Source of the DNA: Pseudomonas koreensis
GTDB lineage: Bacteria > Pseudomonadota > Gammaproteobacteria > Pseudomonadales > Pseudomonadaceae
DNA: 64,000 bases
Assembly: GCF_024169245.1 (NCBI RefSeq)
Contig: NZ_JALJWP010000001.1
Location: 5,209,501 to 5,273,500 of the forward strand
Direction of reading: 5' to 3'
Below are positions 16,533-40,767 of this stretch, piece after piece. The notes under the pieces are model-generated. The model did not search any database. It was not told the DNA's origin and saw only the letters and a list, made by a program, of their open reading frames with translations. Both the position numbers and the translations under genes were made by a program. How positions within the stretch are numbered: the stretch's first letter is position 1; every line of letters starts with the position of its first letter.

Positions 16533-17366
16533 TCAAGCGGCCGCTGCGGCGGTCCAGTTCACCCAGCCAAACACCCAAGTCGCCAGAATCAACAATCCAA
16601 AACCGATCCGATACCACGCGAACGCGGCGTAGCTGTGGCTGGCGATAAATTTCAGCAGGCCACGCACGGCGATCATGGCGAAGATGAACGCGGTGACGAA
16701 TCCGAGGGCGAAGACTGGCAGGTCGTTGGGCTGAAACAGGTCGCGGTATTTGTAGCCGGAATACACTGCGGCGCCGACCATGGTGGGCATGGCGAGGAAG
16801 AATGAGAACTCGGTCGCGGCTTTGCGTGAGAGGCCGAAGAGCAGACCGCCGATGATGGTCGAACCGGAGCGCGAGGTGCCGGGAATCATCGCCAGGCATT
16901 GTACGAAACCGACTTTAAGCGCGTGAGACCAGCGCATGTCATCGACATGTTCAACGCTGACGACATGGCTGCGCTGTTCCGCCCACAACATGACTATGCC
17001 GCCGACAACCAGGGCCACCGCAACGGTGATCGGGTTGAACAGATACTCATGAATCGCGTCGGCGAATAACACGCCGAGGATGACGGCAGGAAAAAACGCG
17101 ATCAGCAGATTAAGCGTGAAACGTTGCGCGTTGCGTTCGGTGGGCAGGCCTTTGACGATATCGAAGATCTTCGAACGAAACTCCCAGACCACAGCAAGAA
17201 TGGCACCCAGCTGAATAATGATGTTGAACGCCATGGCGCGTTCGCCGCCGAATTCGAGCAGGTCGGCGACAATAATCTGGTGACCGGTACTCGAGATCGG
17301 CAAGAACTCGGTCAAGCCTTCTACCGCGCCCAATATCAACACCTGGAAAAGGGTCCAGAAATCCAT
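16533..17366 (-). CDS. uppP: Undecaprenyl-diphosphatase UppP (BacA)
   Basis: Integral membrane enzyme that dephosphorylates undecaprenyl diphosphate, recycling the lipid carrier used for peptidoglycan and for O-antigen and EPS repeat units. It has 277 residues and about eight transmembrane helices. The two active-site loops are intact: EGLTEFLPISSTGH at residues 16-29 and PGTSRSGSTIIGG near 165-177. It lies at the left edge of the EPS locus, which needs the same carrier, although its own promoter region suggests independent expression. Confidence 0.95.
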   Translation of the reverse strand: MDFWTLFQVLILGAVEGLTEFLPISSTGHQIIVADLLEFGGERAMAFNIIIQLGAILAVVWEFRSKIFDIVKGLPTERNAQRFTLNLLIAFFPAVILGVLFADAIHEYLFNPITVAVALVVGGIVMLWAEQRSHVVSVEHVDDMRWSHALKVGFVQCLAMIPGTSRSGSTIIGGLLFGLSRKAATEFSFFLAMPTMVGAAVYSGYKYRDLFQPNDLPVFALGFVTAFIFAMIAVRGLLKFIASHSYAAFAWYRIGFGLLILATWVFGWVNWTAAAAA

Positions 17367-17452
17367 TAATCCTCCGTCAGAGCACTCAGGGTGAGCGGCC
17401 AGTCAATAACACTCGGGGTTGAGTATCTGAGTTACACAATTGGCGCATATGA

Positions 17453-17538
17453 AGATCAAAAGATCGCAGCCTTCGGCAGCTCCTACATTTGAAATGCATT
17501 TCCTTGTAGGAGCTGCCGAGGGCTGCGATCTTTTGATT
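17453..17538. repeat. Inverted pair of family A intergenic repeat
   Basis: Arms carrying AAAGATCGCAGCCTTCGGC and its complement enclose a 20-base spacer, in the 543-bp gap between uppP and the first winged-helix regulator. Same unit as at 4966-5050. Confidence 0.9.
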
Positions 17539-17654
17539 TCGAAGAATAGGTCTAACGGACTGCCACACTCAAGTCATGTTAGTAATCGTCGGCCGACGAA
17601 CTAAATGGAAAAAATTTAGTTCTATCCCAAGGAATATTTCATTTCAGATATGAA

Positions 17655-17672
17655 GTGTGACCAACTTCACAC
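17655..17672. promoter_or_regulatory. Perfect CRP/Vfr-type palindrome
   Basis: GTGTGA at 17655-17660 and TCACAC at 17667-17672 around six bases give the exact CRP core TGTGA-N6-TCACA. Pseudomonas Vfr recognises CRP-like sites. It stands about 240 bp upstream of the regulator at 17910, in an otherwise AT-rich gap, and could place the EPS-linked regulator under cAMP/Vfr control. Confidence 0.55.
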
Positions 17673-39041: not shown

Positions 39042-39080
39042 AAGTCTGTTCTTACCATTCACTGTTCTGAAGAATATTCA

Positions 39081-39521
39081 TCAATGCCCGAGACGCTTTG
39101 CCCATGAACTAACAGCATCTTCAATCAATGCGTGGGCATGAATAAACGCGGCCTTGCCTTGACGATACGGATCATGTATCTCGCGCTCGCTCTGCCATTT
39201 TCCGAGCAGAAACACTTTGCCTCTGGCGTGCGAGGCGATCTTCAGCACTTGATTTACATGGGCCTTTTCCATGACCAGGATCAGGTCCGAGTCATTGACG
39301 ATGTCCGAAGTCAGTTGCCGCGCCTTGAAAGCTTCGGCGCAGTGCCCGTGCTCTTCGAGAACCTGCCGCGCCGAAGCCTCAACGCCTTCGCCCACGCGGG
39401 CGGACAGGCCCGCAGACGACACGGTGATGGCGGACGGGCCCAGCGCGTTGCGCAGCAGCAGTTCAGCCGTCGGACTTCGGCATATATTGCCCACGCAGAC
39501 AACCAGGATCTTTTTGAACAA
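39081..39521 (-). CDS. wzb: Wzb-type low-molecular-weight protein tyrosine phosphatase
   Basis: 146 residues. The P-loop CVGNICRS (Cys9, Arg15) follows MFKKILVV; the general acid lies in IHDPYRQGK near residue 116. It removes phosphate from the Wzc tyrosine tail so that polymer growth can cycle. First gene of the wzb-wzc-GT4-... operon, with the divergent glycoside hydrolase gene at 39811; the 289-bp gap between them is AT-rich and must hold both promoters. Confidence 0.95.
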   Translation of the reverse strand: MFKKILVVCVGNICRSPTAELLLRNALGPSAITVSSAGLSARVGEGVEASARQVLEEHGHCAEAFKARQLTSDIVNDSDLILVMEKAHVNQVLKIASHARGKVFLLGKWQSEREIHDPYRQGKAAFIHAHALIEDAVSSWAKRLGH

Positions 39522-39810
39522 GTCTTGCTTTCCTGTGTAATATCAAACAGCCAACATGCCGCAAAAGTTAATGAACCCTCACGACTTTCCTGCACTCAGA
39601 AATAGCTTCGCCCTGTTAGTACAGGAACATTAAGTACCACAGCGTTTTAAGCCGCCCCAACCACAATTAGCGGACTAAAAATAACTGTGATTTTCAGTTG
39701 TTGTTTTCCTGACAAAAAATAACATTCACGCACTTAGTGCCATCACCGTTATCGGAAATTGAGTAACGGGATAAATATTCGTAGTTGTCATTCTCTTCAG
39801 GAGAGCAGAC

Positions 39811-40767
39811 ATGAAAACAGCACAGCGCAATAAACTCGCCGCCCTCGTACTGATGGCGATCGGTGCCACCAGTCAGGTTCATGCCAGTGAGCTGTTCCCC
39901 AACCTTCCAGCGAAAACCATCGGCGTTCAGGTGAAGATCCAGAGCTTTACCGCCGCCGATGCCGCGCAGATCAAAGCAGCAGGTTTCAGCTTTGTGCGCT
40001 TCGGCGTGTGGAGCGACAGCCTCACCGCCAAGACCTATCAGAAACAGGTCAGCGACGCCTTCGCCGCCGCAGCTTCTGCCGGGCTGCCGGTGCTGCTGAC
40101 CGTGCGCGCAATCAAGGCATTGCCCGCCACTTCCCCCGCTGAACTGGACACGGCCGGCGGTAAGTTCGCCAACGCCGTAACCGGGCTGGAAAAGTCTTAC
40201 AGCTCGCAACTGGTCGCGATCGAAATCTGGAACGAGCCGGATCTGGAACCCTACTGGCCGACGCGCAATTTCGACACCACGTTCGTGCCGTTCATGGCTG
40301 GCATGTGCAAGGCCTTCGAAGGTCAGCCGCAAACGACACCACGGGTCGGCTTCGGCTTCGCCCGGCCGCCAAGCGCTGGCTCGGCTTCGACGGTGGCGTT
40401 GAAAAGCATCGTCAGCGATTACCCCAAATGCCTCAACGCGGTGTCCTATCACCCTTACGGCATGACCGCTACGCAGATCAGCAACGCGCAGACGTTTATC
40501 CAGCAGAACTTCAATCTGCCGGGGGTTATCAGTGAGTGGGGAGTTTCGGCCCTCGCCTCCAACGGCGGGCCTGAGGGGCAGGCGACCAGGATCAACGCGT
40601 TTATCGCTGACGTTAAACGTCTGACTATCCCGCTGACGTCTATCTACGAATGGCGCAATAGTGATTCAGGCAGCAACGATCGCGAGAAGAACTTCGGCTT
40701 TCTCACTTCGGACGGTCAGCCGAAACCGGCACGCTTGTCGGTAGAAGGCGTGTTGAACGCTGAGTAG
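39811..40767 (+). CDS. Secreted glycoside hydrolase, clan GH-A (PslG/cellulase-like)
   Basis: 318 residues, starting at ATG 39811 after AGGAGAG. Signal peptide ends VHA near residue 26. A TIM-barrel glycosidase is shown by FSFVRFGVWSD, VAIEIWNEPDLEPYWPTRN (acid/base Glu in WNEP near 138), AVSYHPYGMT and VISEWGVSA (nucleophile Glu near 243), then IYEWRNSDSG. It matches GH5/39-type endoglycosidases in which the two Glu lie after strands 4 and 7. EPS loci often carry one, as PslG does for Psl, to trim polymer or free misrouted chains. It is divergent from wzb, with its own hairpin terminator at 40774. Confidence 0.88.
   Translation: MKTAQRNKLAALVLMAIGATSQVHASELFPNLPAKTIGVQVKIQSFTAADAAQIKAAGFSFVRFGVWSDSLTAKTYQKQVSDAFAAAASAGLPVLLTVRAIKALPATSPAELDTAGGKFANAVTGLEKSYSSQLVAIEIWNEPDLEPYWPTRNFDTTFVPFMAGMCKAFEGQPQTTPRVGFGFARPPSAGSASTVALKSIVSDYPKCLNAVSYHPYGMTATQISNAQTFIQQNFNLPGVISEWGVSALASNGGPEGQATRINAFIADVKRLTIPLTSIYEWRNSDSGSNDREKNFGFLTSDGQPKPARLSVEGVLNAE

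Follow-up and report, generated by a model that had tools for sequence, protein, structure and literature searches.

The window analysed here is a stretch of 64,000 nucleotides (positions 5,209,501-5,273,500 of a 5.97-Mb single-contig Pseudomonas genome), and its subject is a 24.5-kb block of exopolysaccharide genes, flanked by dusA and tal, in this Pseudomonas of the fluorescens complex. An earlier note on this DNA had called the block a complete Wzx/Wzy locus, a claim that is upheld by the gene families of a primer, a flippase, a polymerase candidate, Wzc and an outer-membrane polysaccharide export (OPX) protein. The genes it named were all recovered at their places as open reading frames (ORFs) and by Pfam and NCBIfam scans (Table 1), save for two corrections: galU is present but on the plus strand, at 28472-29305, and the polymerase gene is present but begins at 33348 (367 aa) rather than at 33435, a start that we prefer because the lengths of its seven best-scoring relatives (P0001-P0007) all fall within 367-369 aa. 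The note's single glycosyltransferase (GT) besides the primer also held, as no second one was found among the block ORFs scanned with Pfam and NCBIfam, and the genes for pyruvate and acyl decoration are present by Pfam (PF04230 and PF01757). The genes wzb-wzc-gt4-pyr-wzx-wzy-acyl all lie on the minus strand with overlaps (4 bp for pyr/wzx, 10 bp for wzx/wzy) or short gaps, and thus look like one operon. A further group on the minus strand is made up of yjbE, wza and yjbFGH, and a hairpin lies between the first two of these genes. That the flippase is of the MOP type is supported by a relative bearing PF01943 (P0008, a fused record) and by a collinear Burkholderia gene that is 35% identical.

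Table 1. Features of the exopolysaccharide block and its flanks (positions within the window).
Feature	Position	Strand	Basis
dusA, left flank, housekeeping	15487..16482	+	ORF, junction marker; name from the earlier note, not from a Pfam scan
uppP/bacA, undecaprenyl-diphosphate phosphatase, second copy	16533..17366	-	PF02673 5e-84
OmpR-type winged-helix regulator, first	17910..18677	+	PF00486 5.5e-11 only; scanned from TTG at 17871
OmpR-type winged-helix regulator, second	18955..19614	+	PF00486 2e-8 only
WcaJ-type undecaprenyl-phosphate glucose-1-phosphate transferase (primer)	19982..21400	+	TIGR03023 449 bits, cut-off 411; PF02397
yjbH, gfcD-like outer-membrane protein	21883..23961	-	PF06082 2.5e-244
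yjbG, gfcC-like	23958..24719	-	PF06251, PF20616
yjbF, gfcB-like lipoprotein	24716..25381	-	PF11102 1e-31
wza, OPX protein with Wza_C domain	25394..26509	-	PF22461, PF02563, PF18412
Conserved 24-nt stretch directly before wza	26510..26533	-	Locus comparison
Intrinsic-terminator-like hairpin, yjbE/wza spacer	26545..26578	-	Folding, alignment
yjbE, 78 aa, signal-like start, gfcA position	26601..26837	-	Sequence, position, composition; no Pfam match
galE, UDP-glucose 4-epimerase	27069..28100	-	TIGR01179 463 bits
galU, UDP-glucose pyrophosphorylase	28472..29305	+	TIGR01099 393 bits; PF00483
136-aa protein adjoining galU	29337..29747	+	No Pfam match
SGNH/GDSL hydrolase	29854..30984	-	PF13472 2e-16
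Acyl_transf_3 membrane acyltransferase	31186..32232	-	PF01757 2e-32
Polymerase, Wzy role by elimination and position; predicted GT-C_A-like fold	32245..33348	-	
Flippase (Wzx)	33339..34571	-	PF01943 1.6e-5, below family cut-off
Polysaccharide pyruvyl transferase	34568..35680	-	PF04230 3e-22
GT4 glycosyltransferase, EX7E motif	35696..36778	-	PF00534, PF13439
wzc, tyrosine autokinase/polysaccharide co-polymerase, Tyr-rich tail	36819..39062	-	PF02706, PF23607, PF13807
wzb, low-molecular-weight tyrosine phosphatase	39081..39521	-	PF01451
PslG-like glycoside hydrolase, signal-like start	39811..40767	+	PF00150 7e-6; PslG 5e-5 (alignment)
Tal-side stretch resembling the non-carrier dusA-tal intergenic region	40790..40969 (start approximate)	.	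By eye
tal, right flank, housekeeping	40970..41896	+	PF00923

Gene families, gene order, the insertion, the extra supply copies, a Burkholderia operon and a fold prediction for the polymerase were computed, and from these we infer the sugars, the linkages, the acyl type and the activity of each enzyme. The primer exceeds the cut-off of the WcaJ glucose equivalog (TIGR03023, 449 bits against 411) and stays far below that of the galactose-specific WbaP (231 bits against 403), and would place glucose-1-phosphate on undecaprenyl phosphate. GalU and GalE are the recognised nucleotide-sugar enzymes, so that UDP-glucose and UDP-galactose should be supplied; in the genome, the block copies are one of two galU and one of three galE genes over the cut-off. 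The GT4 enzyme carries the EX7E motif, the mark of retaining glycosyltransferases, which points to an alpha linkage, and this single enzyme might add alpha-galactose from the UDP-galactose made by the block GalU and GalE. The lipopolysaccharide 1,6-galactosyltransferase WaaB is among its matches, though far below the WaaB cut-off and behind other GT4 enzymes. The pyruvyl transferase, the genome's sole match to PF04230, would then cap the terminal galactose with a pyruvate ketal, probably at positions 4 and 6, before Wzx flips the lipid-linked disaccharide and the polymerase, GT-C_A-like and inverting, links the units through beta-glucose bonds. The block UppP would recycle the lipid carrier. 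Acylation of the product would fall to the membrane acyltransferase, possibly together with the SGNH protein, and a PslG-like hydrolase might trim the chain. We found two uppP copies in all eight carriers of the block tested and one in all eight non-carriers; the possibility that the block uppP is a displaced housekeeping copy was thus discarded, as the eight carriers keep another copy elsewhere.

Pfam and NCBIfam searches with 18 members of the polymerase family gave no Wzy family at E values up to 10, HMMER filters dropping most weak matches, and a PDB sequence search with the polymerase gave two matches at E 0.7 that we take as chance. The confident structural model matches solved GT-C_A enzymes over most of its length, with 34 of 36 rows of the fold comparison counted by title, and seems closer to oligosaccharyltransferase-type (GT-C_A) enzymes than to WaaL (GT-C_B). 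Five residues, D/E45, R171, D330, R336 and H337, are conserved in the 18 members and five distant ones. In PMC10920833, as far as its available text goes, the BP-Pol clan GT-C3 (GT122-GT124) is characterised by a long loop in the N-terminal part and by the conservation of two arginines, one aspartate and one histidine, and the block polymerase, with a loop in its N-terminal region, two Arg, Asp and His, fits this signature as described. If it belongs to the clan, the polymerase would be inverting, hence the beta-glucose bond. Table 1 of PMC10920833 leaves clan GT-C3 without a structural class, and the GT-C_A assignment, if right, would suggest one for the GT-C3 polymerases and connect polymerases of the BP-Pol kind with oligosaccharyltransferases. 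The same fold could be read differently, namely as that of a glycosyltransferase of the membrane that works from a lipid-phosphate sugar, with the true polymerase encoded elsewhere, since of five GT-C_A families in a table of PMC10920833 four rely on lipid-phosphate monosaccharides. We regard this as very unlikely, as the block has no other polymerase candidate, the gene sits between wzx and the acyltransferase gene in Burkholderia too, and the conservation of D/E, two R and H is consistent with clan GT-C3 as described.

The block is conserved as a unit. Among 298 Pseudomonas genomes, 42 hold an orthologue of the pyruvyl transferase at E 1e-20, with a lowest identity of 83%, and among the best 120 of 906 matches of a protein search the enzyme also appears under the name P. 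mucidolens at 87-88% (P0032, P0034). The polymerase occurs in 67 named loci, every one titled Pseudomonas, and the closest named relatives of the block (polymerase 97-98% identical) are those of Pseudomonas sp. Choline-02u-1, Pseudomonas sp. CFBP13508 and P. siliginis, which we take to be members of the fluorescens complex. As regards the genes found, 66 of the 67 loci keep the unbroken order tal-hydrolase-wzb-wzc-gt4-pyr-wzx-wzy-acyl-sgnh-galU-galE-wza-yjbF-yjbG-yjbH; tal stands beside the block in 64 of these and was not found in L067 and L070, L070 and L071 stop before galU-yjbH, and yjbH is incomplete at the end of the stretch in 39. In all 66, the genes gt4, pyr, wzy, sgnh, wzb and hydrolase have a stop-free match over at least 90% of their length. 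The sixty-seventh locus (L080) holds a copy that has diverged and in which several genes are fragmented, and the stretch covered gave no match at E 1e-4 for the acyltransferase, SGNH, wza, yjbF, yjbG or wcaJ. At E 1e-10, the polymerase profile was found in two of 369 gammaproteobacterial genomes, the window's own and G462. In the latter (locus L141), a related polymerase lies beside wcaJ, wzb, wzc and a GT4-like gene, with wza-yjbFGH on the other strand, a MatE-like protein and a CDP-glycerol glycerophosphotransferase-type gene lie between wzc and the GT4-like gene, and no pyruvyl transferase match was found in the locus. Might the same machinery be at work here with a different charged substituent?

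The plan seems to extend beyond Pseudomonas. When 72,556 plasmid records were searched by tblastn, matches to the pyruvyl transferase came from two, which are Burkholderia records (B. ubonensis and B. stagnalis). The B. ubonensis plasmid pRF23 (258,679 bp) is annotated with wcaJ, wza, wzb, wzc, one glycosyltransferase and the pyruvyl transferase, followed by a polysaccharide biosynthesis protein, a hypothetical protein and an acyltransferase, and its proteins are 36% (wcaJ), 33% (wza), 35% (wzb), 38% (wzc), 34% (GT), 45% (pyruvyl transferase) and 35% (wzx) identical to those of the window. The hypothetical protein matches polymerase profile A1 at E 1e-12, while the acyltransferases share a Pfam family and have no significant BLAST match. 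All nine B. ubonensis proteins were matched, at 62-76% and in the same order, in the unannotated B. stagnalis record. Unlike the Pseudomonas block, the B. ubonensis stretch has no annotated yjbEFGH, galE, galU or hydrolase. The common order wzb-wzc-GT-pyr-wzx-wzy-acyl in the two genera supports the idea that a primer and one GT are sufficient, and one GT besides the primer plausibly suffices. Alternatively, the repeat might be larger, sugars being added before flipping by at least one glycosyltransferase whose gene lies outside the block. The genome has two further PF02397 primers outside the block and further galE copies near 4.10 Mb, suggesting other polysaccharide clusters, and the repeat units surveyed in the available part of PMC10920833 have 3-7 backbone sugars, which would make a disaccharide unusually small. 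However, the same GT recurs in the 66 collinear Pseudomonas loci, both Burkholderia operons pair one GT with a primer, and the block supplies only glucose and galactose genes, so that we consider a larger repeat unlikely.

A polymer of the predicted kind has precedent in Burkholderia. A described exopolysaccharide of B. cepacia has the repeat 3)-beta-Gal-(1-3)-4,6Pyr-alpha-Gal-(1- (Cerantola 1996, as cited in PMC6801904), and several other polymers carry 4,6-pyruvate on alpha-Gal according to the text available of the same source. The suggestion of the earlier note that the block makes an undescribed polymer is doubtful, given this described pyruvylated disaccharide polymer and the marginalan of P. 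marginalis treated below. The acidic B. cepacia polymer resembles the predicted product in its pyruvylated disaccharide repeat, and related Burkholderia have the collinear one-GT operon, but it is a galactan whereas a galactoglucan is predicted for the block. It could be argued that the block product is likewise a pyruvylated galactan, its primer or GT using galactose only, and the described structure (PMC6801904, in part), the collinear Burkholderia operon and the galE gene in the block would all be compatible with this. The primer, which passes the WcaJ glucose cut-off and falls far short of the WbaP galactose one, argues against it and makes this reading quite improbable.

The marginalan of P. 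marginalis is another pyruvylated disaccharide polymer. It was reportedly described by Osman and Fett in 1989 as an acidic polymer with a 1:1 glucose:galactose disaccharide, 4,6-pyruvate on the galactose and succinate. Marginalan is also named as a P. fluorescens exopolysaccharide in PMC5812248, as far as the accessible text goes. The block matches this structure in its predicted 1:1 ratio of glucose to galactose, its pyruvate and an acyl group, and its enzyme set is compatible with it, although the succinate of marginalan is not predicted from the block sequence. We therefore lean slightly towards a product of the form [3)-beta-Glc-(1-3)-4,6Pyr-alpha-Gal-(1-]n with added acyl groups, which may be marginalan or a near relative. 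We propose more tentatively, and with rather less confidence, that the block represents the smallest Wzx/Wzy line, in which a primer and one GT make a lipid-linked pyruvylated disaccharide and an unnamed enzyme family of GT-C_A fold, distinct from WaaL and SEDS, polymerises it en bloc, on a plan common to Pseudomonas and Burkholderia, and that it might be the missing marginalan-type locus. To our knowledge, polymers of the marginalan type have been studied for decades with no known locus.

Several points weigh against the favoured reading of the product as marginalan or a near relative. The donor sugar of the GT4 enzyme is not readable from sequence, and glycosyltransferases from elsewhere in the genome might, as noted above, contribute to the repeat. 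None of the 67 named loci is titled P. marginalis, though many are titled only Pseudomonas sp., and the locus is linked to no producer of known chemistry. In addition, PF04230 proteins of any kind occur in 103 of the 298 Pseudomonas genomes, against 42 for the block type, so other types of pyruvyl transferase exist in the genus; the Burkholderia strain of known polymer is another than those whose operons were compared here, and that polymer is a galactan; and genes are interrupted in four of the 66 collinear loci (in L036, wza and wzc in part, and an in-match stop in wzc of L066, acyl of L068 and wzx of L069).

The locus seems to be undescribed within the literature searched, as judged from listings and from passages of a minority of the papers, subscription papers being mostly outside reach: no assignment of the block genes to a polymer was found there, nor any paper on marginalan genes. 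The terms yjb, pyruv, marginalan and galactoglucan do not occur in the main text of PMC7716237, on matrix loci in 611 Pseudomonas genomes, and the accessible text of PMC4379610, on mucoidy in MFE01, gives sugars and names no locus for them. Pap of P. ogarae F113 is similar in being a Wzx/Wzy-type locus of the fluorescens complex, but it has a UDP-glucose dehydrogenase and three GTs (Table 1 of PMC7716237), and its description in that main text, unlike the content of the block, is free of 'pyruv' and 'yjb'. With its different GT set and no UDP-glucose dehydrogenase, the block is not Pap. If the proposal is right, the block would provide candidate genes for a long-studied polymer, and a minimal two-step system in which each step of Wzx/Wzy synthesis could be rebuilt from defined parts.

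The claim that the block is an insertion at a conserved dusA-tal junction was borne out by a survey of 80 Pseudomonas genomes (G000-G079; 17 carriers and 63 non-carriers). The gap between dusA and tal is 23,945-26,414 bp in 16 of the 17 carriers, the remaining one being split over contigs, and 44-1,334 bp in 50 of the 55 non-carriers in which the two genes share a contig. One of these 50 (G022) has dusA and tal oppositely oriented, as have four of the other five, whose gaps are 1,796-12,431 bp; of the remaining non-carriers, six carry the two genes on separate contigs, dusA was not matched in G077, and neither gene was matched in G025. By eye, the approximately 180 bp before tal in the window resemble the intergenic stretch of non-carriers (20 read, clear for the close ones), and the dusA side departs from them immediately after the dusA stop codon. 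The long carrier gap, the short non-carrier gap and the matching tal side together fit insertion of the block beside the dusA stop codon at a conserved junction. In trees of dusA, tal and both jointly, with 36 tips (the window, 15 other carriers and 20 non-carriers with close tal, including one outgroup), the carriers are not a single clade, as non-carriers such as G038, G046 and G058 fall among them (support values unchecked), which requires losses, recombination of the flanks or repeated gains. Later loss or flank exchange of the block is thus likely. Pairwise distances of block genes correlate with those of wzc at r 0.82-0.93 and with those of tal at r 0.23-0.50, rows covering less than 85% of the query being omitted (yjbH kept 40). 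The full and empty junction eases comparison of carriers with natural non-carriers for drying tolerance and root life. Four non-carriers (L132-L135) show 4.5-12.4 kb between dusA and tal.

Export would proceed through Wzc, Wzb, Wza and YjbEFGH, as for group 4 capsules. The earlier note had thought a Wza/Wzc system with a full yjbEFGH set unusual, which does not hold, as it equals the E. coli gfcABCDE-etp-etk set (PMC8592465, in its available part). Likewise, 55 of 79 YjbH homologues near OPX genes lie near class 1 OPX genes in the available text of PMC9603273, where YjbH-type proteins are predicted to form two barrels, and the co-occurrence in these two sources disposes of the combination as an oddity. 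Given its Wza_C domain, Wza is expected to be a class 1 OPX protein spanning the outer membrane. All the group 4 components, the gfcABCD homologues with Wza, Wzb and Wzc, are in the block, gfcA/yjbE being recognised by position and composition, with a Thr/Gly-rich C-terminus. The block differs from E. coli group 4 in its order A-E-B-C-D, in the position of wzb and wzc in the biosynthesis operon and, presumably, in exporting a dedicated polymer instead of O-antigen. The hydrolase keeps the WNEP and EWG motifs when aligned with PslG.

The hairpin between yjbE and wza folds at -12 kcal/mol or below before a T-run in 60 of 64 named loci, the other four, which lack a stretch of four T upstream of wza, having been left unfolded. 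In an alignment of 16 of the 65 sequences (46 distinct), each of its inner 12 pairs is kept in 12-16 sequences, 11 of the 12 in all 16, with some changes on both sides. The hairpin may allow an excess of yjbE over wza-yjbFGH. The adjoining stretch GCCCTTGAATAGCGTAGTGCCATT is identical in 63 of the 64 named loci reaching wza (the exception is L058) and, when up to two mismatches over 17 bases are allowed, has a single match in the genome; no Shine-Dalgarno is evident in it directly before the wza start.

Among the remaining features, the two OmpR-type regulators adjoin each other between uppP and wcaJ, and Pfam matched only their DNA-binding C-terminus (PF00486), with no receiver domain in either; the sequence of the first gives the impression of a possibly degenerate receiver. 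PDB sequence searches with the SGNH protein, the pyruvyl transferase and the acyltransferase gave no matches, PADLOC returned nothing useful on the SGNH and 136-aa proteins, and there was no match in Rfam at gathering scores or in a viral fold library at E 0.001. The 136-aa protein, which has no Pfam match, is 56-95% identical across the collinear loci reaching the galU side. REP-like runs, of the GAGCCTGCTCGCGA type and GATCAAAAGATC, were seen by eye at 21450-21870 and 30990-31190, where they occupy the spacers around wcaJ/yjbH and SGNH/acyltransferase.

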